64,000 nucleotides of DNA, from assembly GCF_964222135.1 (NCBI RefSeq), contig NZ_CAXQBR010000026.1, positions 1 through 64,000 on the forward strand, written 5' to 3'. Source of the DNA: Euzebya sp. (GTDB lineage: Bacteria; Actinomycetota; Nitriliruptoria; Euzebyales; Euzebyaceae). The translations under genes were made by a program, and so were the position numbers. The notes below the pieces were generated by a model. The model did not search any database. It had not been told where the DNA came from and saw nothing but the letters and a program-made list of their open reading frames with translations. Shown here one piece after another: positions 9,931 through 59,691 of this stretch (position 1 is the first letter of the stretch; each line of letters opens with the position of its first letter).

Positions 9931-10659
9931 TCAGCTCCGCCGGGCGGTGCCGCGCAGGAGCGCGACACCCATGAGGAGGGTGAGGGTGAGGAAGAGGGTG
10001 AGGGTGCCCGCAGGCGCGCCGGTCGCGGCCAGCTCGGTGACGGGCTCCTCGTCGTCGTCCGCGCTGTCCCCGTCGTCGGCCTGATCGTCGTCGGCCTGGT
10101 CGTCGTCGGCGTCATCGTCCACGCCGGATGTCGACCCCCCGGTGCTGCCACCGGTCCCGCCTGTCGTTCCCCCGGTGCTGCCGCCCGTCGATCCGCCGGT
10201 GGTACCGCCGGTGCTGCCCCCCGTCGATCCGCCGGTGGTACCCCCCGTCGACCCGCCGGTCGTCCCGTCCGTCGTGCCCTCCGTGGGCTGGTCGACCTGG
10301 GCCTCGACGACGACCTGCTGGAACGGGTCGCGCGCGCCGACGATCTCGTACTGCTCCTCCTCGACCTCGTCGAGGACGCCGAGGCCGTCGGAGTCGGTGC
10401 CGCCGTCAGCCGCGTCGCCCGCACCGGCTCCGCTGTCGTCCTCGGTCACGGCGTCATCACCGGTCACCGGCGGCTCGACCGGCGCGAGCGGGTCGGCGAC
10501 ACCCGGTTCGGTCGCGGTGGCGACCGGCTGGTCGTCGTCGTCGGACAGCAGCGGCTGGATGACGAAGCCCCACAGCGCGTAGAGGACCGCGAGGCCGACG
10601 ACCACGCCGAGCAGGATCAGCAGGGGCCTGCTGACCTGTTGCTGGCTGGGCGTGCTCAC
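9931..10659 (-). CDS. PilP-position pilus protein 2, LAATG sortase-signal form
   Basis: 242 aa. The N-terminus closely matches the set 1 protein: MSTP...QQVSR, a transmembrane helix (about 12-32), an acidic linker and ARDPFQQ at 109-115. Then come Thr/Gly/Ser repeats (127-178, TTGGSTGG type) and a very acidic stretch (180-205). Where set 1 has a PilP-like domain, this protein ends in LAATG (210-214), a hydrophobic helix (218-235) and the basic tail RGTARRS. That is a sorting signal of the LAxTG type used by class E sortases. Start overlaps the pilO2 stop by 4 nt. Function is inferred: possible wall anchoring of the second alignment complex. Confidence 0.75.
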   Translation of the reverse strand: MSTPSQQQVSRPLLILLGVVVGLAVLYALWGFVIQPLLSDDDDQPVATATEPGVADPLAPVEPPVTGDDAVTEDDSGAGAGDAADGGTDSDGLGVLDEVEEEQYEIVGARDPFQQVVVEAQVDQPTEGTTDGTTGGSTGGTTGGSTGGSTGGTTGGSTGGSTGGTTGGTGGSTGGSTSGVDDDADDDQADDDQADDGDSADDDEEPVTELAATGAPAGTLTLFLTLTLLMGVALLRGTARRS

Positions 10660-11372
10660 TGGACCTGTACCTCACCGTCAGGGTTCGTGGTGCCCCCCGA
10701 TTGTGCCGGGTCGGTCGCCGTCGGGGTTGCATCTGCCGCGGTCGGGCTGGCGGCCGGCGACGCCTCATTCGTCGGCGTGGGCGTCGTGGTGTCGGGGGGC
10801 ACATCGGCGACAGGCGCCCGAACCAACATGTAGATGTCGGCGCTGAACGCCGCCGTCAGCTCAGGGAACCCATCCTCGGCCTCGGTCATGTTGACCGACG
10901 TGACCAGGACGGCGCGCGACGACCCGACCTCCAGGCGCCGGAGGAAGTCCACCATCTGGAAGTAGGTCCCCTCGACCGTCCCCGTTACGGTGACCGCGCC
11001 CAACGTGGTCCCGGGGATCCGCGTCGCGGGGGCGCCCTCGATCGCGGTGGGGTCGGTGAAGTTCAACGACGTGAACGTCAGGCCCGACGCGTTCCCGGCC
11101 TCCTGCAGGAGGTCCAGCAGCGTCGCCTGATCCGGTTGCGGGGGGATGTAGGCGCCGAGCCGGTCGAGCGCGGCCTGCAGCTCGGGCGCTCGCTCCTGCA
11201 GGCTGCGGAGCTGCGCGAGCTGGTTCGTGAGCGTGGTCTCCTGCGTCTCGAGCTGGACGATCTCGGCATCCAACGCGTTCCGCTGCTCCCGCGCCGGGTT
11301 GTACAGGAGGAACCACCAGCCCACGAGCGAGGCGATGGCGAGCAGGACCAATCCGACGATAAGCTGCCTCAC
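10656..11372 (-). CDS. pilO: Type IV pilus alignment protein PilO (set 2)
   Basis: 238 aa. One transmembrane helix (about 5-25), a coiled coil (28-70), and a ferredoxin-like domain (about 80-190) containing IPPQPDQATLL and a TYFQMVDFLRRLE segment typical of PilO. A Thr/Pro/Ala-rich tail ends in DGEVQVQ. It overlaps both neighbours by 4 nt (pilN2 before it and the LAATG protein after it), so the set is tightly coupled. Confidence 0.87.
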   Translation of the reverse strand: MRQLIVGLVLLAIASLVGWWFLLYNPAREQRNALDAEIVQLETQETTLTNQLAQLRSLQERAPELQAALDRLGAYIPPQPDQATLLDLLQEAGNASGLTFTSLNFTDPTAIEGAPATRIPGTTLGAVTVTGTVEGTYFQMVDFLRRLEVGSSRAVLVTSVNMTEAEDGFPELTAAFSADIYMLVRAPVADVPPDTTTPTPTNEASPAASPTAADATPTATDPAQSGGTTNPDGEVQVQ

Positions 11373-12025
11373 CGCTCGGCCTCCGGCAGACCCTCGGCGT
11401 AGCGGCCGGTCCGCGCGTCGTCGTCCAGGCGCACCTCGGCGTTGAACTGGGTGATGTCGACGTCGCCGATCTCCCCGGCGGTCGCCGAGGAGAGGTACTC
11501 CTGGAAGAAGCCGTCGATCTCACCGAACCGGCGGAGGAGCTCCTCGATGCCGGGGGTGAACAACTCGGTGGTGTAGCCGTCCACGGCGAAGAAGCCGATG
11601 TCGGTGTCGTCGGTCTCGATGAACACGTCCTGCTGCCCGGGTAAGGCGCCCGTCGGCGCGTCGGTGAGCTGCCCGTCGATGTCGGTGAACGACGCGGAGG
11701 GTGGGATGCCCCGGGAGAGGTCGACGAGCAACTGCGCCCAGGACACCTCGTCCGCCATAGCGAAGGCGAGGACCTGGTTCCCCGATGCGACGTCGTCGGC
11801 GAGCTCCTGGAACACCGCCAGCGAGTCCACCTCGCCCTGCAGCTGCGCCACCCGCGTCGCGGTGGCGTCACGCTCCTCCTGCACCTGGGACAGGCCCGAC
11901 AGCTGCAGGAGCGAGGCCAGGCCGAGGACCGCCCAGAGCAGCGCGATCACGAGCAGCCCGTAGAGGGCCCGCCGCCTGATCTGGACGCGGCGAGCATCCT
12001 CGTCGGGGAGGAGGTTGATCGTCAC
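11369..12025 (-). CDS. pilN: Type IV pilus alignment protein PilN (set 2)
   Basis: 218 aa. It begins MTINLLPDE, the PilM-docking motif, then a transmembrane helix (about 23-42), a coiled coil with VAQLQGEVDSL, and an extracytoplasmic ferredoxin-like domain. It overlaps pilM2 and pilO2 by 4 nt each. The C-terminal TGRYAEGLPEAER matches the set 1 TGRYDEGLPEVAE, showing a common origin of the two sets. Confidence 0.88.
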   Translation of the reverse strand: MTINLLPDEDARRVQIRRRALYGLLVIALLWAVLGLASLLQLSGLSQVQEERDATATRVAQLQGEVDSLAVFQELADDVASGNQVLAFAMADEVSWAQLLVDLSRGIPPSASFTDIDGQLTDAPTGALPGQQDVFIETDDTDIGFFAVDGYTTELFTPGIEELLRRFGEIDGFFQEYLSSATAGEIGDVDITQFNAEVRLDDDARTGRYAEGLPEAER

Positions 12026-13077
12026 TCGAGGCCCCGCATGGCCAGGCCGACCGCGACGGCGAAGAACGTCTGCGCAGCCTCCAGCTCGTCATCGGTGAAG
12101 GTGAGGTCCTTCCCGATGTGGAGTCCGCGGAACGGCTTCCCGGTGACCGCCTCTGCGGCGAGGGCGCGCGAGATCCGCTCATCGATCCCGGGGATGAGGG
12201 AGCTCCCGCCGGTCAGCACCACGCGCTGCACGTCGATGGCACCGGGCGCGGCCCGGTAGTACGTCATCGAGTTGCGGATCTCCTCGACGAGCCAGGAGAT
12301 GCGGTCGTCGAGGAGCGTCGAGTACTGCGACGACGCGCCAGGGGTGACCGACTTCAGCGTCTCGGCCTGCTGCCACTCCATCCCGAAGGCCGACACGAGG
12401 GATTCGGTGATGTCGTCCCCGCCGATGTTGATGATGCGGGCGAACCGCGGCACACCGTCGGAGTGCACGACGAGGTTCGTCAGCTGGGAACCGAGGTCGA
12501 CGATCAGCTCGCCGCTGGTGTCCCCCGCCCCGAAGCGCTCGGCACCGTGCAGCGGGGTCCGCAGGGAGCGCATGGCGGCGAACGCGTCGAGGTCCAGCGC
12601 GACCGGTCGCAGCCGTGCCGCCTTCGCGACGTCGAGCACGCTGGCGACCATGTGCTTCTCGGCGGCGACGAAGAGCACCCGCATCATCGTGGAGCCGTCC
12701 TCGTGGGTGAACTCCTCGATGTACTCGTAGTCGAACTCGATCTGCTCGATGGGGAGGGGGAGGTAGTCCTGGGCCTGGAAGCGCAACGACTCCTTCATGT
12801 CCGGGACGTCGAGGTGGGGCAGATCGACGCGCCGCACGATCACGTGCTGGTTCGCCAGCCCCAGGGCCACCTTCTTGCTCTTGAACCCGAACTGGTCCCA
12901 GAGGATCCCGATCGCCTCGGTGATCGCCGCGGGATCGCGGATCTCACCGTCGATGACCGCCTGTGCGGGCAGCACGACCTGACCGAGCCGGTCCAGCGTG
13001 ACGACGTCCTTGCGTCGGGACAGCTGGATGGCACGCACCGCGCTCGACCCGATGTCGAGCCCTATCGCCGTCGCCAC
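12022..13077 (-). CDS. pilM: Type IV pilus actin-like protein PilM (set 2)
   Basis: 351 aa. GLDIGSSAVRAIQLS at the N-terminus, a GELIVDLGSQLTNL phosphate-2 block and VVLTGGSSLIPGI adenosine motif. Start chosen is the GTG at 13077: it aligns with PilM1 residue for residue and has GAGGAG upstream. Upstream codons in the same frame cross a terminator hairpin and are not protein-like. A TATGTT box at 13164-13159 (minus strand) is a possible -10 element. Confidence 0.93.
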   Translation of the reverse strand: MATAIGLDIGSSAVRAIQLSRRKDVVTLDRLGQVVLPAQAVIDGEIRDPAAITEAIGILWDQFGFKSKKVALGLANQHVIVRRVDLPHLDVPDMKESLRFQAQDYLPLPIEQIEFDYEYIEEFTHEDGSTMMRVLFVAAEKHMVASVLDVAKAARLRPVALDLDAFAAMRSLRTPLHGAERFGAGDTSGELIVDLGSQLTNLVVHSDGVPRFARIINIGGDDITESLVSAFGMEWQQAETLKSVTPGASSQYSTLLDDRISWLVEEIRNSMTYYRAAPGAIDVQRVVLTGGSSLIPGIDERISRALAAEAVTGKPFRGLHIGKDLTFTDDELEAAQTFFAVAVGLAMRGLE

Positions 13078-13165
13078 CCGTTCGTGTGCTCCTCGCGGAT
13101 CGGTTCGTGGTCGGCCCGCGGGCAGGGGGTCAGGCCGGCGGGTCCAAGGTCGGGCCGCAACATAG

Positions 13166-13208
13166 CACCGGGCCGTCCGGATCCCTGGGAGGGTCGGACG
13201 GCCCGGTG
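13166..13208 (-). terminator. Strong hairpin after the second pilin
   Basis: A perfect 14-bp stem (CACCGGGCCGTCCG at 13166-13179 with its complement at 13195-13208) and 15-nt loop, 18 bp past the stop of the pilin at 13226. It should end the riboswitch-controlled pilin transcript and separate it from pilM2. No T-run follows. Confidence 0.7.
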
Positions 13209-13225: not shown

Positions 13226-13624
13226 TCAGAGCTCGGGGCAGTCCTCGAAGATCTGGACGCCGGAACCGCTGACGTAGTGGGCGACCTGGGCGTCCGCGGG
13301 GAGGCGCGCATCGCGCCCCTCGACGCAGAACTCGCTGCGGTCGTCGTTGGTCACGTAGGTGAGGGTGATGGAGGGGTCGGAGATCTCGAGGCCGATGTCC
13401 TCGAAGGCGTCCTGGTCCTCCGGGTACGCACCGCTGTTGGTCACGTACTCCGCCTCGACGTCGAGTATGGAGTTGCGCACATCGGAAAGGAGTTGCGTCT
13501 CCCATCCGTGCTCACGTTGAGACAGCAACAAGGGGACCGCAATCCCGGCGAGGACACCGAGGATGATCACGACCACAAGTAGCTCGACTATGGAGAACCC
13601 CTGCTCTGAGGGTTGCGTATCCAC
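13226..13624 (-). CDS. Type IV pilin with C-terminal cysteine pair
   Basis: 132 aa from the GTG at 13624, which has GGGAGA 6 nt upstream. This gives a 9-residue leader ending in G, then the class III cleavage site G/FSIVE with Glu at mature +5 and a hydrophobic N-terminal helix. An ATG/GTG at 13693 would give an odd 32-residue leader that crosses a hairpin. The second half has two cysteines (in EFCVEG and FEDCPEL) that could close a D-region loop. The first pilin lacks these. It is probably a minor or alternative pilin. Confidence 0.85.
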   Translation of the reverse strand: MDTQPSEQGFSIVELLVVVIILGVLAGIAVPLLLSQREHGWETQLLSDVRNSILDVEAEYVTNSGAYPEDQDAFEDIGLEISDPSITLTYVTNDDRSEFCVEGRDARLPADAQVAHYVSGSGVQIFEDCPEL

Positions 13625-13647
13625 CGGCGATCTCCCACTTAAGGCGA

Positions 13648-13677
13648 ACGGGTCAGAGCCACGAGGCCCTGACCCGT
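13648..13677 (-). terminator. Hairpin between the two pilin genes
   Basis: ACGGGTCAG (13648-13656) pairs with CTGACCCGT (13669-13677), with a further GCC/GGC pairing inside across one mismatch and an ACGA loop. It lies 25 bp past the first pilin stop and just before the RBS of the second. It may act as partial terminator or 3'-end stabiliser, giving more of the first pilin than the second. Confidence 0.55.
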
Positions 13678-13702
13678 CGATACTGATCACCAAACGTTCG
13701 GA

Positions 13703-14122
13703 TTACTCTGCGGGTTCGGTGTAACCCTGCAGACCGCCGTCGAGCGAGCTGTAGATCACCGTTCCATCGAGACTCTCATGCCCCCCCTCGATGGTGAAGT
13801 CGTTCTGGTTCAGCGTGATGTCCTCAGCCGCCATCGTCACTGGGCCGTCTTCCCCTTGGATATCGTCCAAGAACGCGAGGACCTCGGCTTCGGTGAGCTC
13901 ATTGTAGACGCCACCATCGCTGGTTGCGGCAGCCTCGACCTCAAGGGCGAGGTTCCGAACAGTCGAGGTCAACTCTGCCTCCCAGCCGCGCTCGCGCTGG
14001 TTCAGGAAGGTCGGGATGGCGATGGCGGCAAGGATGCCGATGATGATCACGACGACGAGCAGCTCGATGAGGGTGAAGCCCTCCTCGGCGTCCCGCAGGC
14101 GCTCACGGAGCTTTGTGAACAT
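13703..14122 (-). CDS. Major type IV pilin (prepilin)
   Basis: 139 aa. Leader of 15 residues ending in G, cleavage site G15/F16, TLIELLVVVIIIGILAAIAIP helix start with Glu at mature +5, then a short acidic globular region without cysteine. This is the best candidate for the main pilus subunit: AGGAG lies 7 nt before the ATG, and a dedicated leader with a c-di-GMP riboswitch precedes it. PilB/PilC would assemble it and PilT retract it. The ATG at 14122 is fixed by the leader length and the RBS. Confidence 0.93.
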   Translation of the reverse strand: MFTKLRERLRDAEEGFTLIELLVVVIIIGILAAIAIPTFLNQRERGWEAELTSTVRNLALEVEAAATSDGGVYNELTEAEVLAFLDDIQGEDGPVTMAAEDITLNQNDFTIEGGHESLDGTVIYSSLDGGLQGYTEPAE

Positions 14123-14163
14123 GTGTATCTCCTCTGAGATATGAGTGCGATGATGCGAGGAGG

Positions 14164-14275
14164 GGTGCGTGCGCGAGGCAGCTCGGCTCACCACTTGCCT
14201 GAATGATGATGTGTGGCTCGTGGTCCCGTGGCTTTGCGTCCCGGCCTCACGGCCGGTTTGCCCGTTCTGCACACC
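14164..14275 (-). ncRNA. Cyclic-di-GMP-I (GEMM-I) riboswitch
   Basis: The minus strand carries the GEMM-I core: GGGCAAACC (about 14263-14255), a GGCC-GTGA-GGCC stem with a GNRA loop (14254-14243), then GGGACGCAAAGCC and ACGGGACC (14242-14222). These are the conserved c-di-GMP pocket and P1b elements. The second arm closes with CCAC/GTGG and the tetraloop-receptor-like AGCCGAGCTGCC (14188-14177). GGTGTG (14274-14269) can pair with CGCACC (14169-14164) as P1. It ends about 40 nt before the pilin ATG. The class is recognised by motif; on or off switching was not determined. Confidence 0.9.
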
Positions 14276-14360
14276 TCCACCGGTTGTGGAGTCCGCCTGA
14301 TGGAGGACAACCTCTGTATCGACAGCCGGTGAGCCACCTTGAGGCCTACCGGCGAAATTG

Positions 14361-14385
14361 CCTGGTCCGCCCCTACTGGACCAGG
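14361..14385 (-). terminator. Hairpin at the end of pilC
   Basis: CCTGGTCC (14361-14368) pairs with GGACCAGG (14378-14385) and overlaps the pilC stop. On the minus strand it is followed by CAATTTC, a short T-containing tail. It could end the pilT-to-pilC transcript so that the pilins are driven from their own riboswitch leader. The leader between this hairpin and the riboswitch (14276-14360) should hold the promoter; GATACA at 14320-14315 is a weak -10 candidate. Confidence 0.45.
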
Positions 14386-15596
14386 TCGAAGATCTTGAAC
14401 ATCGGCATGTACAGCGCGATGACCATCCCGCCGACGATCCCGCCCAGGACGGCGATCATGACCGGCTCGAGCAGCGCGGTCAGCTGCTCGGTGGTGGCCT
14501 CGACCTCCTGGTCGTAGAAGTCGCTGATCTTCTCGAGCATCTCGTCGATCGCGCCGGTCTCCTCCCCCACCGCGATCATCTGGACCGTCATAGGCGGGAA
14601 GACGGCGTGCTTCGACAGCGGCGTCGCCATCGACTCACCTTCCTTGACCCCGGCCTTGACGTCGTTGATCGCGTTCGACATGACCCCGTTGTTCACGGTG
14701 TCGGCGGAGATCTCGAGGGCCTGCAGGATCGGGACACCCGCCCGCAGCAGCGACCCCAGGTTCCGGGTGAAGCGCGACAGGGCGACCTTGTGGAAGAGCG
14801 GGCCGAACACCGGCAGCTTGAGCTTCATGCGGTCCAGGAAGAACCGGACGTTGTCCTGCTTCCGGGCCCACTTGAACCCCTGCCACGCCGCGATGGGCGC
14901 GAGGAGGAACAGGTACCAGAAGGTCCGCATGCCCTCGGACAGCATCACCAGCACCTGCGTGGGCAGCGGGAGCTCGCCGCCCAGGGACTCGAACAGCCCC
15001 TCGAACGTCGGCACGATGAAGATGATCATCGCACTCGAGAGGACGACGGCCATGATCAGCACGACGACCGGGTAGGTCATCGCCGACTTCACCTTCCGCC
15101 GCAGGGCGACGTCGGCTTCGAGCGTCGCGGCGACGCGCAGCAGCACCTGGTCGAGCAGACCCGCCGTCTCACCCGCGCGGACCATCGCGATGTAGAGCTT
15201 CGGGAACACCTCGTGGTCGGCCATCGCCGTCGAGAGCGGCCGGCCCTGCTCGACCTGCGAGCGGACCTCGCCGATGACCTCGGCGAGCTTCGGGTTCTCA
15301 GTCTGCTCCGCCAGGATGTTGAGCGCCCGGATGAGCGACAGGCCCGAGTTGATCATCGTGGCGAACTGACGGCTGAAGACCGCCAAGTCCGCGAGCGAGA
15401 CCTTCTTCCCGAACCCCGGGATGTTGATCTCCTTCTGGGCGAGCGACTCCTTCTTCTCGCCGATGGAGACCGGGGCATACCCGAGCTCGCGAAGACGGTC
15501 GGCGACCGCCTTCTGGTTTGCCGCGGACATCGTGCCCGACTTGGTCTTGCCAGCACGGTCGCGGACCGTGTACTCGAACGTCAGTTGATCAGCCAC
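14373..15596 (-). CDS. pilC: Type IV pilus platform protein PilC
   Basis: 407 aa, standard length. It is a polytopic inner-membrane protein with two tandem T2SSF domains (about 70-195 and 275-397), including FSRQFATMINSGLSLIRAL and the paired FTRNLGSLLRAGVPILQAL. It couples the PilB/PilT motors to pilin insertion. The downstream neighbour is the riboswitch-controlled pilin, and the upstream neighbours are minor-pilin-like genes. Confidence 0.95.
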   Translation of the reverse strand: MADQLTFEYTVRDRAGKTKSGTMSAANQKAVADRLRELGYAPVSIGEKKESLAQKEINIPGFGKKVSLADLAVFSRQFATMINSGLSLIRALNILAEQTENPKLAEVIGEVRSQVEQGRPLSTAMADHEVFPKLYIAMVRAGETAGLLDQVLLRVAATLEADVALRRKVKSAMTYPVVVLIMAVVLSSAMIIFIVPTFEGLFESLGGELPLPTQVLVMLSEGMRTFWYLFLLAPIAAWQGFKWARKQDNVRFFLDRMKLKLPVFGPLFHKVALSRFTRNLGSLLRAGVPILQALEISADTVNNGVMSNAINDVKAGVKEGESMATPLSKHAVFPPMTVQMIAVGEETGAIDEMLEKISDFYDQEVEATTEQLTALLEPVMIAVLGGIVGGMVIALYMPMFKIFDLVQ

Positions 15597-19941: not shown

Positions 19942-21636
19942 TCACGCACGCCCGCAGAGGCGGTTGAAGTCCGCCACGTTGGCGCAGCGCTCGATCGCGT
20001 GGTTGTAGGTGACGATCCCGCGGTTCACGAGCTCCGCGAGGGACTGGTCCATCGCGATCATCCCGTGCTGCTTGCCCGCCTGGATCGAGGAGTACATCTG
20101 GTGGGTCTTGCCCTCGCGGATCAGGTTCTTGATGGCCGGCGTGGCGACCATCACCTCGACCGCGACAGCGCGCCCCGACCCGTTGGAGCGCTTGAGCAGC
20201 TGCTGGGTGACGACGCCATTCAGGGCGTTCGACAGCATCACGCGGATCTGCTCCTGCTGGTGGGGCGGGAACACGTCGATGATGCGGTCGATGGTCTGCG
20301 GGGCGTCCTGGGTGTGGAGCGTGCCGAAGACGAGGTGACCGGTCTCCGCGGCGGTGATCGCCAGCTGGATGGTCTCGAGGTCGCGCATCTCCCCGACGAG
20401 GATGACGTCGGGATCCTGGCGCAGGACGTGCTTCAGCGCCTGAGCGAAGCTGTGGGTGTCCTGGCCGAGCTCGCGCTGGTTCACCACCGACTTCTTGTGG
20501 TGGTGGAGGAACTCGATCGGGTCCTCGACGGTCATGATGTGTTGGGCGCGCTCGCGGTTCACGATGTCGATCAGCGATGCGAGGGTCGTCGACTTGCCCG
20601 AACCCGTCGGGCCGGTCACGAGCACGAGCCCGCGCGGCATGAACGCGAAGTTGCTCACCTGGGCGGGGATGCCGAGCTCCTCGAGCGGCTTGATCTCGAA
20701 GGGGATCACACGCATGACCGAGCCGATGGCCTCGCGCTGCTGGAAGATGTTGACGCGGAAGCGGCCGTACCCCGGGATGGAGTGCGACATGTCGAGCTCG
20801 AGCTCGTTCTCGAAGATCTCGCGCTGCTTCTGCGTCATGATCGAGTACAGCGCGTTGCGGAGCATGTCCGGCTCGAGGACGGGCACGTCGGGGAGGTGCT
20901 CGAGCTCGCCGTGGACCCGGATCGCCGGGGGGATGCCGACAGTGAGGTGGAGGTCCGATCCGCCGCGGTTGACCAGCTCGATGAGGGCCGCCTCGAGGTC
21001 GAAGCCGAGGGACTGCTCGTAGGCGAGTCGCTTGCTCTCCTGCATCGCGCTCTCGCGCCGCTCGGGGGCGGCGGTCGGTCCGGTGGGCGTGGACGCCGCG
21101 GCCATGCTCAGCCCCGCGGGGGGCTCCGCCGGGGCGGCGGCGCCGTCGAACCCGGGACCGGCCGGCTGGCCTGCACCGTCGACGGGGAGCTGCACGGTGC
21201 CGTCGGCGTCAGCGTCCGCGAGGTGCTCGATCGCCTCGGCGAGGGCGTCCTTGACCGCGAGGGCCGGGTGGGCCTCCAGCCCGGTGATCGCGGCGACCTG
21301 TGACAGCGCGGCGGAGTTGGCCGGGTCGGCCAGGGCCACCAGGACGCTGTCACACTGCCCGAACTGCCCCGGCAGGGCCATGAGCTGCCGCGCGACGTCG
21401 CGGGGCAGGAGGCGGGCGGCGGAGGGGTCGACCGATCCCGGCTTGACGTCGACGAACGGCAGGCCGATCTGGGTGGCGACCGCACCGACGATCTGCGCCT
21501 CGGTCGCCATGTTCAGCTCGATGAGGGTCCGGCCCAGGCTGGTCCCGTTGGCCATCCGGATGTGCTCGGCCTGCTCCAGCCGCTCGGGGGTCAGGACCCC
21601 GTGCTGGACCAGGACATCTCCCAAGGACTGAGTCAT
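19942..21636 (-). CDS. pilT: Pilus retraction ATPase PilT with N-terminal MshEN domain
   Basis: 564 aa, about 200 longer than ordinary PilT. Residues 1 to ~140 form an MshEN-type (T2SSE N-terminal) domain with two LGxxLxxxGxLxxxxLxxA-like motifs; the second has Asn where Gly is usual. A linker follows, then a PilT core from about 205: Walker A GPTGSGKST near 342, ILVGEMRD Walker B region, and the AIRDLI-type C-terminal motif as AIKNLIREGKTHQ. MshEN domains can bind c-di-GMP. The ATG at 21636 has GGGGAG 4 nt upstream. Confidence 0.9.
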   Translation of the reverse strand: MTQSLGDVLVQHGVLTPERLEQAEHIRMANGTSLGRTLIELNMATEAQIVGAVATQIGLPFVDVKPGSVDPSAARLLPRDVARQLMALPGQFGQCDSVLVALADPANSAALSQVAAITGLEAHPALAVKDALAEAIEHLADADADGTVQLPVDGAGQPAGPGFDGAAAPAEPPAGLSMAAASTPTGPTAAPERRESAMQESKRLAYEQSLGFDLEAALIELVNRGGSDLHLTVGIPPAIRVHGELEHLPDVPVLEPDMLRNALYSIMTQKQREIFENELELDMSHSIPGYGRFRVNIFQQREAIGSVMRVIPFEIKPLEELGIPAQVSNFAFMPRGLVLVTGPTGSGKSTTLASLIDIVNRERAQHIMTVEDPIEFLHHHKKSVVNQRELGQDTHSFAQALKHVLRQDPDVILVGEMRDLETIQLAITAAETGHLVFGTLHTQDAPQTIDRIIDVFPPHQQEQIRVMLSNALNGVVTQQLLKRSNGSGRAVAVEVMVATPAIKNLIREGKTHQMYSSIQAGKQHGMIAMDQSLAELVNRGIVTYNHAIERCANVADFNRLCGRA

Positions 21637-21805
21637 GCGTCTCCCCACAGTCACGGCCGTGGTCGTCGGTGCGAACGGTCATCACCCGGTGCGCGACCGG
21701 GTCGTCAGAGACCTCATCGGCCGGGAGGGCACCGGACTTGACCGTTTCCGCGTGGACGGGACAGCGCGGTACCGCCTGGAGGCGGTCCGACCGGGTCCCG
21801 GGGAT

Positions 21806-21975: not shown

Positions 21976-23676
21976 TCAGACGACCACGCGTCCGATCTCC
22001 TCGAGCGTGGTCTGGCCCAAGAGGACCTTGTGGAGCCCGTCCTCGCGGAGGGAGTGCAGGCCGTTGGCCTCCGCGGCCTTCGAGATCTCGTCGGTCGACG
22101 CCTTCTGGACGATCAGCCGCTCGATCTCCTCGTTGACCCGCATGATCTCGTGGATCGCCAGCCGCCCCCGGTACCCGGTGCTCCCGCAGTGCGAGCACCC
22201 GACTGGCCGGAAGAGGGGCGGGAAGCGGTCGAGGTCGGCCTCCTCGATCGGCAGGCCGGCGGCGCGGAGCTCGGACAGGGTCGGCTGGTACTGCTCCTTG
22301 CACTTGCTGCACAGCCGGCGCGCCAACCGCTGGGCCAGCACGCAGTCGGCGGCGGAGGCGACCAGGAACGGGTCGACGCCCATCTCGGTCAGGCGGGTCA
22401 CCGCCGACGGGGCGTCGTTCGTGTGCAACGTCGACAGCACCAGGTGACCGGTCAACGCGGCCTCCAGCCCGATCTGTGCGGTCTCGTGGTCGCGCATCTC
22501 ACCGACCAGCACGACGTCGGGGTCCTGGCGCAGGATCGACCGCAGCGCCATCGAGAACGTCAGCCCGGCCTTCTTGTTCACCTGCACCTGGCTGATGCCC
22601 GGCAGGCGGTACTCGACGGGGTCCTCGGTGGTGACGATGTTGATCTCGGGCCGCGAGATCTTGTTCAGGGTCGCGTACAGGGTGGTCGACTTCCCCGACC
22701 CGGTCGGGCCGGTGACCAGGATCAGCCCGTAGGGCTTGGTGAAGGACTCGCTGAACAGCTTGTAGTTGTGCTCGGTGAAGCCCAGGTCGGACAGGTCGAG
22801 CAGGATCGAGGACTTGTCCAGGATCCGCATGACGACCTTCTCGCCGTACACCGTCGGCAGGGTCGAGACGCGCAGGTCGATGTTCTTCGACGCCACCCGG
22901 ATCGAGATGCGCCCGTCTTGGGGGACCCGCCGCTCGGCGATGTCGAGGTCCGCCATGATCTTCAGGCGGCTGACCACGCCGGCGTGGATCTTCCGCGACT
23001 GCGTGGTGATCTCGTGGAGCACGCCGTCGATGCGGTAGCGGACCCGCACCTCGGTCTCCTGCGGCTCGATGTGGATGTCCGAGGCCCGGTCCCCCACCGC
23101 CTGGCTGATCAGCGCGTTGACGAACTTGACGATCGGCGCGTCGTCGACGCCGGCGTCCTCGATGGCGGTGAGCTCGTCGTCCTCGTGCCCGACCTCGAGG
23201 TCGCTGCCGAGCTGGGCGACGGAGTCCCCGCCCATCGCCGCGTACCGGTCGAGCGCCGCGGTGATGTCCGAGCGGGTGGCGACGACGGGCTGGATCTCGC
23301 GGTCGCAGACGGTCCGCAGGTCGTCCAGTGCGATGACGTTGGAGGGATCGCTCATCGCGACCTTCAGGATCCAGCCGTCGGTGAAGCCGAACGGGAAGAC
23401 GCTGTAGCGCCGGCACATCGCCTCGGGCACCAGGCTGGCGGCGACGTGGTCGACGTCCTCGCCCTCGAGCTCGACGAACTCGAGGCCGAGGTGGGTGGCG
23501 AGCGCGCTGACCAGGCCGGCCTCGGTGAATAGGCCCATCTCGATCAGGACCCGGCCGAGGGAGCGGCCGCGGCGCTGCTGCTCCTCACGAGCTGCGGCGA
23601 GGTCCTCCGCCGAGATCAGGCCCTCGTCGAGGAGGACGTCAGCGAGCTGTCGGGTGGACTGCACGGGCGGGGTCAC
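21976..23676 (-). CDS. pilB: Pilus extension ATPase PilB
   Basis: 566 aa, normal length for PilB/GspE. The N-terminal MshEN domain (about 7-150) has both LxxVLxxEGLI...L..A and SLGRVLIEMGLFTEAGLVSA motifs. The ATPase core has Walker A GPTGSGKST near 325, VLVGEMRDHET, and a zinc-binding tetracysteine (CSKC ... CSHC) near 480-525. It powers pilin polymerisation. The ATG overlaps the stop of the GTPase gene by 4 nt. Confidence 0.95.
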   Translation of the reverse strand: MTPPVQSTRQLADVLLDEGLISAEDLAAAREEQQRRGRSLGRVLIEMGLFTEAGLVSALATHLGLEFVELEGEDVDHVAASLVPEAMCRRYSVFPFGFTDGWILKVAMSDPSNVIALDDLRTVCDREIQPVVATRSDITAALDRYAAMGGDSVAQLGSDLEVGHEDDELTAIEDAGVDDAPIVKFVNALISQAVGDRASDIHIEPQETEVRVRYRIDGVLHEITTQSRKIHAGVVSRLKIMADLDIAERRVPQDGRISIRVASKNIDLRVSTLPTVYGEKVVMRILDKSSILLDLSDLGFTEHNYKLFSESFTKPYGLILVTGPTGSGKSTTLYATLNKISRPEINIVTTEDPVEYRLPGISQVQVNKKAGLTFSMALRSILRQDPDVVLVGEMRDHETAQIGLEAALTGHLVLSTLHTNDAPSAVTRLTEMGVDPFLVASAADCVLAQRLARRLCSKCKEQYQPTLSELRAAGLPIEEADLDRFPPLFRPVGCSHCGSTGYRGRLAIHEIMRVNEEIERLIVQKASTDEISKAAEANGLHSLREDGLHKVLLGQTTLEEIGRVVV

Positions 23677-24290
23677 GACCTCCCGGCGGTCGGGTCGGCG
23701 GCACCGCCGTCCACGCCGACCGCCAGGCGGTCGCGGGCGGCCTCGAAGAGCTCGACGAGCATGTGGCGTGCCGATTCGGGGTTCCGGGCGTCACCGGCGA
23801 CGGACCGCACCTCGGCGGCCAGGCGCAGCTGGTGGTGGGCGCGGCGGGCGGACAGCTCCTCGCGTCCGGGGAGGACCTTGTTGACCAGCAGGATCCACGG
23901 GAGGTCGGAGGCGGCCTCGACCTGCTCGATGACGTCGGCGACCTCGTCGAAGGAGTCCGGGCGGGTGTCGTCGACCATGATCACGACCCCGAGGGTCCCC
24001 TCGCCCAGCGCCGCCCACAAGGGGTCCAGCCGGGGGTGGCCGGCGGTGCCGAGCAGCTCGACGTCGAGGCCGTCGTCCACGTGCATGCGGCCCACGTCCA
24101 TGGCGAGGGCGGCCGGGTCGTCGTCGTCGAGGTCCAGGGCGGCGCGCGGCTCGGCCCGCGTGACGGCGGTGTCGGACAACGTCTGGATGAACGTCGTCTT
24201 ACCCGCGCCGTAGGGACCCGTCACCACCACGGTCAGGGTGGGCGCGGTCACCGCCCCAGCCTCCCCGGACACCTCAGCCACCCCGGACAC
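23673..24290 (-). CDS. Small GTPase-like protein (MglA-like)
   Basis: 205 aa. P-loop GPYGAGKTT at 25-33, an LLGTAGHPR segment in the place of the DxxG switch (the aspartate is replaced), and LLVNK in place of NKxD. Length and order fit the MglA/actinobacterial ATP/GTP-binding family. MglA with its partner MglB sets cell polarity and pilus use in Myxococcus. Here it overlaps both the DUF4388 gene (17 nt) and pilB (4 nt), so a role in switching or siting the pilus motor is a fair inference. The GTG start is uncertain by several codons. Confidence 0.75.
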   Translation of the reverse strand: MSGVAEVSGEAGAVTAPTLTVVVTGPYGAGKTTFIQTLSDTAVTRAEPRAALDLDDDDPAALAMDVGRMHVDDGLDVELLGTAGHPRLDPLWAALGEGTLGVVIMVDDTRPDSFDEVADVIEQVEAASDLPWILLVNKVLPGREELSARRAHHQLRLAAEVRSVAGDARNPESARHMLVELFEAARDRLAVGVDGGAADPTAGRS

Positions 24291-25422
24291 CCTCGATCAA
24301 CCGGGTGAGCAGGTCGGAGCTGACCGTCGGCGGGGCGTCGGTCCCGTCCGCCGACGTCTCGGCCCTGGCGGCGGCCAGTGGCGAGCCGGGCGGCCCCCAC
24401 CGCGGCACGACCGCGTCCGCTCCCCCATCCGCCCCCTCGACATCGTCCGCGTCGTCCGCGTCCTCGACATCCCCGTCGTCAACGGCCACCACCGCCTCGA
24501 CGTCCACCTCGTCGTCGACCGCCGGCTCCTCCACACCCTCGCCCTCGAGCGCGGCGGCGACCGCAGCGCGACGCGAGGGGGCGGGGCTGGCCGGCGCAGG
24601 CGACGTCGGCGCGTCGTCCGGCGCGGGGGCGCCGAGCAGATCGTGCTCCAGAGCGGCCAGCGCGGCCTCGCGGTGCGCGGCCGAGGCGTCGGTCCCGTCC
24701 TCGTCGGTGGGCGCGATCAGGCCGTCGGCGACCATCTCGGCGAGACGCTGGGCGACGACGAGCCGGCTCTGGCCGCTGAGGCGGACCAGGTCGGCCACGG
24801 TGCGGGTGCCGTCGACGAGGGTGAGGATCCGCCACTGCTCGGCGTCCAGCTCGATCGTGCCGGAGGCGGCCAGCGGGGGACGGCACACCGCGACCAGGAC
24901 CTGGTCGTCCGCGGGCACCTCGGCGGCGAGCTGCTCCCAGGTGGCCAGCCGGTCGCGGACGGCGTCGAGCACCTCGGTCGTGGCCAGCCCGGTGGCCGTG
25001 GGGGCGACCTCTGCGCCCGCGTCGAAGCTGAACTGGCCCGCGGCCCACCGCGCGAGCTCCACCACCGCGTCGGTCACCTGGTCGCGGATCAGTTCGGCCG
25101 CGCGGTCAGCGGCGATGCCCGCGTCGGCCAGCGCGGCGGCGACATCCCCCGACCCCACGTCCCCCGACCCCTCGTCCTCGCGCGCGTGTGCGCGCACGAC
25201 GTCGGCGACCGCGTCGACGTCCAGCTCACCGCTGTGGACCAGCCGGGCGGCCAGCGGGGCGCGGGTGACGTCGGCGACCGCGAACGCGATGTCGCCCTGG
25301 CTGATCCAGATCCGCCCCTGGACATCGTCGTGAGAGACGTGCAGCACACCGGTCTTCCGCGTCGTCGCGAGCAGACCGAAGACGTCGGGCAGGGAGAACT
25401 CGGTCAGCGACCCCGCGAGCAT
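24274..25422 (-). CDS. DUF4388 domain protein
   Basis: 382 aa. The N-terminal DUF4388 (about 1-105) has the classic opening LxGSLTEFSLPDVFGLLATTRKTGVL.V and a G.I.F..GDI..A pattern. A second helical region (about 125-260) resembles the winged-helix tail of PatA/DUF4388 proteins, with VDGTRTVADLVRLSG. The last 120 residues are acidic and Ala/Pro-rich. DUF4388 proteins often accompany gliding and T4P GTPases. It is the first gene of the pilus series, 42 nt after aroE. GGAAAGG lies 6 nt before the ATG. Confidence 0.85.
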   Translation of the reverse strand: MLAGSLTEFSLPDVFGLLATTRKTGVLHVSHDDVQGRIWISQGDIAFAVADVTRAPLAARLVHSGELDVDAVADVVRAHAREDEGSGDVGSGDVAAALADAGIAADRAAELIRDQVTDAVVELARWAAGQFSFDAGAEVAPTATGLATTEVLDAVRDRLATWEQLAAEVPADDQVLVAVCRPPLAASGTIELDAEQWRILTLVDGTRTVADLVRLSGQSRLVVAQRLAEMVADGLIAPTDEDGTDASAAHREAALAALEHDLLGAPAPDDAPTSPAPASPAPSRRAAVAAALEGEGVEEPAVDDEVDVEAVVAVDDGDVEDADDADDVEGADGGADAVVPRWGPPGSPLAAARAETSADGTDAPPTVSSDLLTRLIEGVRGG

Positions 25423-59587: not shown

Positions 59588-59691
59588 CTCTGCTTCACCA
59601 CGTCCGCGGAGCCCCTCTCGACACGTCGACGGCCGACCCATCGCCAGGTGCATCGACCTACGGTGCGTCGGCCTTGAGCGACTGCCGGTCG

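Follow-up and report, generated by a model that had tools for sequence, protein, structure and literature searches.

A WhiG-type promoter in front of a c-di-GMP-I riboswitch: probable two-step control of a pilin message of Euzebya sp. by c-di-GMP

The pilin message of a type IV pilus cluster of Euzebya sp. (contig NZ_CAXQBR010000026.1) is probably controlled by c-di-GMP twice, at initiation through RsiG-WhiG and at a later step through a riboswitch, since the message appears to start at a WhiG-type promoter and to begin with a c-di-GMP-I aptamer. In the first step, c-di-GMP would let RsiG hold WhiG, and high c-di-GMP would result in less pilin transcription. In the second step, after initiation, c-di-GMP would close the aptamer and alter the fate of the leader, the most likely output being ribosome access to the pilin start. 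The MshEN domains of PilB and PilT would provide a third input at the protein level. We infer that WhiG reads the pilin promoter, that the RsiG of this strain binds c-di-GMP and what the riboswitch output may be; that c-di-GMP sets the supply of pilin is plausible. With somewhat less confidence, we lean towards the wider view that RsiG-WhiG makes up a single conserved module with the c-di-GMP-I riboswitch in part of Actinomycetota, placed on transcripts of pilins and secreted surface proteins, in which one messenger would gate initiation and then the fate of the message, possibly with opposite signs. The main features of the window (the whole analysed stretch of 64,000 nucleotides) are the following:

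21976-23676, minus: PilB with N-terminal MshEN (T2SSE, 476 bits; NF053729, 48.4 bits)
19942-21654, minus: PilT with N-terminal MshEN (TIGR01420, 485 bits; NF053729, 43.5 bits, cut-off 38)
14373-15596, minus: PilC (T2SSF, 235 bits)
14316-14343, minus: flagellar/WhiG-type promoter, -35 CTCAAG at 14343-14338, 14-nt spacer, -10 GTCGATAC at 14323-14316
14174-14272, minus: c-di-GMP-I (GEMM-I) riboswitch aptamer, RF01051 match over the full length
13703-14122, minus: first (presumed major) pilin, 139 aa, GFTLIELLVVVIIIGILAAIAIPTF; PF07963 and TIGR02532 over cut-off
13640-13680, minus: strong hairpin between the pilin genes (-35.7 kcal/mol, z -5.2)
13226-13621, minus: second pilin, 131 aa; PF07963 and TIGR02532 over cut-off
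13166-13208, minus: strong hairpin 3' of the second pilin gene (-38.2 kcal/mol, z -4.8)
12022-13089, minus: PilM (PF11104, 197 bits)
10656-11372, minus: PilO, after PilM and a gene in the position of PilN

The aptamer was identified by an Rfam covariance search as RF01051 (14272-14174, minus strand, 51.7 bits, model positions 1-87 of 87), with a gathering score of 35 bits and an E value of 3.3e-07 for 64 kb, both strands and all 4227 Rfam families. The 64-kb window gave no other Rfam match, and in the 5.06-Mb genome this is the sole c-di-GMP-I copy (E 6.1e-9). The earlier note had placed a GEMM-I riboswitch in the leader of the first pilin gene and had staked this on the Rfam score, which has now been computed, is significant and confirms the proposal. 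The pieces of the core and the GNRA-capped stem that it had described are all present: GGGCAAACC, GACGCAAAGCC, ACGGG and a GUGA loop on the stem CCGGCC/GGCCGG. The 3' end of the aptamer lies 51 nt from the ATG of the 139-aa pilin. Model nucleotide 12 is G, as in all 33 pilin aptamers, and we take this position to be G20 of Vc2, the base that selects c-di-GMP over cGAMP; the base predicts c-di-GMP rather than cGAMP as the ligand. It is highly improbable that we are dealing with a remnant, or with an aptamer for a different dinucleotide, for instance cGAMP: the score is moderate and P3 carries a long insertion, but the core is intact, the aptamer is kept at the pilin gene across the genus and the class, and G stands at the presumed specificity position in 33/33 cases. 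The binding of cGAMP by related GEMM-I aptamers of Geobacter speaks for such a ligand (PMC8835794).

On the minus strand, the pilus cluster has the order PilB, PilT, two pilin-like genes, PilC, promoter, riboswitch, pilin 1, hairpin, pilin 2, hairpin, PilM and PilO. PilB scored 652.6 bits with TIGR02538, slightly below the cut-off of 675.65, and the MshEN profiles PF05157 and NF053729 exceeded their curated cut-offs in both PilB and PilT, so the earlier assignment of MshEN to both motors was right. The gene and domain matches likewise support the pilin as the target within an actinobacterial type IV pilus cluster. Two hairpins do exist near the pilin genes: one lies between the two genes and the other after the second. 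A T-run was absent 3' of either hairpin. The hairpin at 13640-13680 possibly sets the ratio of pilin 1 to pilin 2. At the head of the cluster, before PilB (23673-25422, minus strand), lie genes for a DUF4388 protein and for a small GTPase with Ras and ATP_bind_1 matches, a pair that recalls MglA-type polarity control.

The promoter upstream of the aptamer is an exact pattern match and the top-scoring such site in 64 kb. The flagellar-type consensus comprises a TAAA-like -35 element and the -10 element GCCGATAA at a spacing of about 15 nt (PMC8325347), and CTCAAG-N14-GTCGATAC of the window fits the WhiG/flagellar-type consensus. The promoter and the aptamer are 43 nt apart, and the start of pilin transcription is predicted near 14311. 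A scan of the leader for σ70 promoters found none, and the sole terminator-like site from a scan for simple terminators fell within the second pilin gene, with none in the leader. Weaker WhiG-like sites occur at gene starts of the same cluster (25481, 21742 for PilT, and 19925). Outside the cluster, a WhiG-like site CTCAAG-N15-GTCGATGC with a score of 10.5 was observed at 59678 (minus strand). The earlier reading of the control stood as to the riboswitch, the pilin target, the pilus and MshEN; it had overlooked the WhiG-type promoter and was thus incomplete, since this promoter would add a c-di-GMP input ahead of the RNA switch, which then comes second and is no longer the entire control.

Reading of upstream sequences by eye showed that CTCAAG-N15-GCCGATAC recurs in front of aptamers. 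Loci of the class served to build a promoter score, which was then tried on those of other classes; a locus counted if it scored at least 10.5 in the 130 nt before the aptamer. A promoter was found at 79 of 141 Actinomycetota c-di-GMP-I loci (the best-scoring riboswitch matches, a non-random set from related genomes with p-values not corrected for ancestry), compared with 0/141 on the reverse strand, 1/272 farther upstream and 5/2820 dinucleotide shuffles. The class contributed 23 of 43 loci (controls 0/43, 0/82 and 1/860, respectively), and the other classes, not used for the motif, 56 of 98 (0/98, 1/190 and 4/1960). Among the pilin loci, 29 of 33 had a promoter scoring at least 9.5. This enrichment upstream of aptamers excludes a chance match. 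A separate named set with the exact aptamer core gave a promoter at 0/37 loci in Bacillota, 2/29 in others and 2/14 in Actinomycetota, and the riboswitches of Cellulomonas and other Micrococcales in this set were without it. The idea that the promoter accompanies c-di-GMP-I riboswitches in general was consequently rejected on the Bacillota and Cellulomonas results. An aptamer of Rubrobacter marinus does have a WhiG-type promoter; this aptamer (L240:159-241) obtained its top score with the variant family c-di-GMP-I-GGC (RF03167).

In Streptomyces and Rubrobacter, c-di-GMP lets RsiG hold WhiG, and high c-di-GMP lowers transcription. Both proteins are encoded in the genome studied here. WhiG scored 366.2 bits with the equivalog profile NF004935 (cut-off 343) and had Streptomyces venezuelae WhiG as its best PDB match (309 bits). 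A strict DNA pattern for RsiG requiring Q gave six matches, none of them convincing, and a protein profile then found RsiG (L180:1414-1965), which matches PF22802 with 87.7 bits in two stretches. Its motif 1, EARLSYARRLLHGQLD, has H and fits the published Q/H form, and its motif 2, ESSISSLRRTVLDHLD, has L in place of Q. Across the phylum, RsiG was present in 144 of 153 riboswitch-bearing genomes and in 107 of 243 riboswitch-free ones (odds ratio 20, uncorrected for relatedness). In sister genomes, strict promoter matches were found before a PilB-like gene, a PilV-like prepilin gene and a pair of genes for an M23 peptidase and RsiG. The last arrangement (L197 of the sister genome G002), in which the WhiG-type promoter is followed by the peptidase gene and then rsiG, suggests feedback by WhiG on its own anti-sigma factor.

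We consider it unlikely that the riboswitch alone regulates the pilins and that the promoter is an ordinary flagellar one read by FliA, with no part for RsiG-WhiG. Flagella (FlhA) and a second σ28-type factor, closer to FliA, are also encoded in the genome, so FliA could read the pilin promoter, WhiG and FliA sharing their promoter specificity (PMC8325347); moreover, nine riboswitch-bearing genomes lack RsiG, and the promoter stands at one of four such loci. On the other hand, the enrichment excludes a chance promoter match, RsiG and the riboswitch track together across the phylum, and the strict promoters of the sister genomes precede pilus genes and the M23-rsiG pair in the same way as the WhiG-type promoters with mapped starts precede pilus genes under RsiG-WhiG in Rubrobacter (PMC8325347). 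The dual control that we favour has its own difficulties: besides the FliA-like factor and the Micrococcales riboswitches without the promoter, these are the H and L residues of the RsiG motifs, the borderline anti-Shine-Dalgarno helix of the window and the folding of its leader, which involve the following elements:

14269-14274, minus: 5' strand of the aptamer-closing helix (GUGUGC), complementary to 14174-14169
14169-14174, minus: 3' strand of the closing helix (GCGCAC), from the class-wide pairing test
14157-14162, minus: candidate anti-Shine-Dalgarno CUCCUC, six pairs with GAGGAG, tentative (z -1.9, p 0.06)
14129-14134, minus: Shine-Dalgarno GAGGAG of the first pilin, read from the sequence

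Judged by its elements, the leader seems to have the anatomy of a translational switch. The native partners of the closing helix pair over a greater length than partners re-dealt across the class (0/5000 permutations). In the genus g21, a helix of 5-10 pairs at the same place, joining the nucleotides directly 3' of the closing helix to the Shine-Dalgarno, is kept despite sequence variation (z -2.2 to -3.5). The CUCC part of the anti-Shine-Dalgarno can alternatively pair with GGAGGUGUGC (14278-14269), in a register incompatible with closure of the aptamer by this helix. Partition-function folding of the leader showed no difference in Shine-Dalgarno access between the closed and the open aptamer. 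As regards the sign of the riboswitch, the chance of repression by c-di-GMP appears to be about even; activation is less probable, and little effect would be rather surprising. The pilin leaders of a distant family, f25, end in terminators, the 5' arm of which can pair with the 3' closing strand of the aptamer (z -1.9 to -4.2); since this antiterminator uses the closing strand, an OFF-switch is predicted, and these distant leaders look like termination OFF-switches. Their terminator arrangement resembles that of Cd1, an OFF-switch (PMC9262584). As a general rule, such an antiterminator failed over 29 terminator-bearing leaders (mean z -0.4) and was good only in the f25 pilin leaders. Opposite signs of the two layers, with RsiG-WhiG lowering transcription at high c-di-GMP and the riboswitch acting as an ON-switch, would give a pulse or window of pilin at intermediate c-di-GMP, a reading that we regard as doubtful. 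An upstream leader segment can pair with the anti-Shine-Dalgarno side in the window and in several relatives, such as L030 (GCAAGUCGC/GCGACUUGC), and the resulting helix would have the aptamer inside it and could leave the Shine-Dalgarno free; GEMM-I ON-switches are known, such as the GEMM-Ib switch of Geobacter pilM (PMC9262584), and the majority of the remaining targets in the phylum look secreted, which would make them plausible products of high c-di-GMP. Yet folding gave no gain in Shine-Dalgarno access, the native pairing energies of the upstream and downstream segments barely exceeded those of swapped ones, and the f25 antiterminator predicts an OFF-switch.

Taken alone, the riboswitch is of an already known kind and common in Actinomycetota: c-di-GMP-I exceeded the cut-off in 151 of the 396 genomes of the phylum and in 28 of the 49 of the class. 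A pilin gene lies directly 3' of it at 33 of the 146 collected loci, and the four genomes of the genus all keep the riboswitch at the pilin gene. At the other loci (L003-L162), many first genes have a signal peptide-like start, and most non-pilin targets in the phylum appear to encode secreted proteins. Many of these genes also contain the pattern FVSxINxERAxxGLPAL, which we presume to be that of CAP-domain proteins, and some genes behind the riboswitches have starts that we take to be TasA/camelysin-like. One riboswitch of the class (L014) is located before a response-regulator gene, not a gene for a secreted protein, and is without a good WhiG-type promoter.

To our knowledge, no RsiG-WhiG input acts on pilA1 of Clostridioides difficile. 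The leader of that pilin gene also carries a c-di-GMP riboswitch, Cd2, which according to the work cited in PMC6916266 is of class c-di-GMP-II, unrelated to the c-di-GMP-I of the window. The aptamer described here shares its full-model fold with the RF01051 riboswitches Vc2, Cd1 and Geobacter pilM, and it shares a type IV pilus gene as the target with the last of these (PMC9262584). It differs in being placed downstream of a WhiG-type promoter, in the leader of an actinobacterial pilin gene; no intrinsic terminator was found in that leader, and its G predicts c-di-GMP and not cGAMP. The Rubrobacter system resembles ours in encoding WhiG and RsiG and in having type IV pilus genes with promoters of the flagellar type, whereas the transcript of the window adds a riboswitch, which the main text of PMC8325347 does not mention, and the RsiG of this genome is a twin-motif protein whose motif 1 has H and whose motif 2 has L in place of Q. 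By title and abstract, the literature found on RsiG or WhiG together with a riboswitch consisted of reviews and unrelated papers only, and a search for similar phage DNA found none. The combination of a WhiG-type promoter and a c-di-GMP-I riboswitch on one message in much of the phylum is likely to be new.

If correct, the dual control would be a rare, testable case in which one small molecule controls initiation and a later step of the same message. It would add a second layer to the RsiG-WhiG regulon outside Streptomyces, whose members could be predicted from the promoter and aptamer, and it raises the question of whether the promoter and riboswitch layers agree or oppose each other. As a minor observation, the motif UCAUC(G) occurs in the P3 insert of the window (about 14210-14202) and again in the leader (about 14153-14145). 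Of the 17 pilin aptamers of the class, 10 have it in their P3 insert, and it is repeated in several leaders, at about five times the background (L016, L019, L027, L029, L047 and L089).
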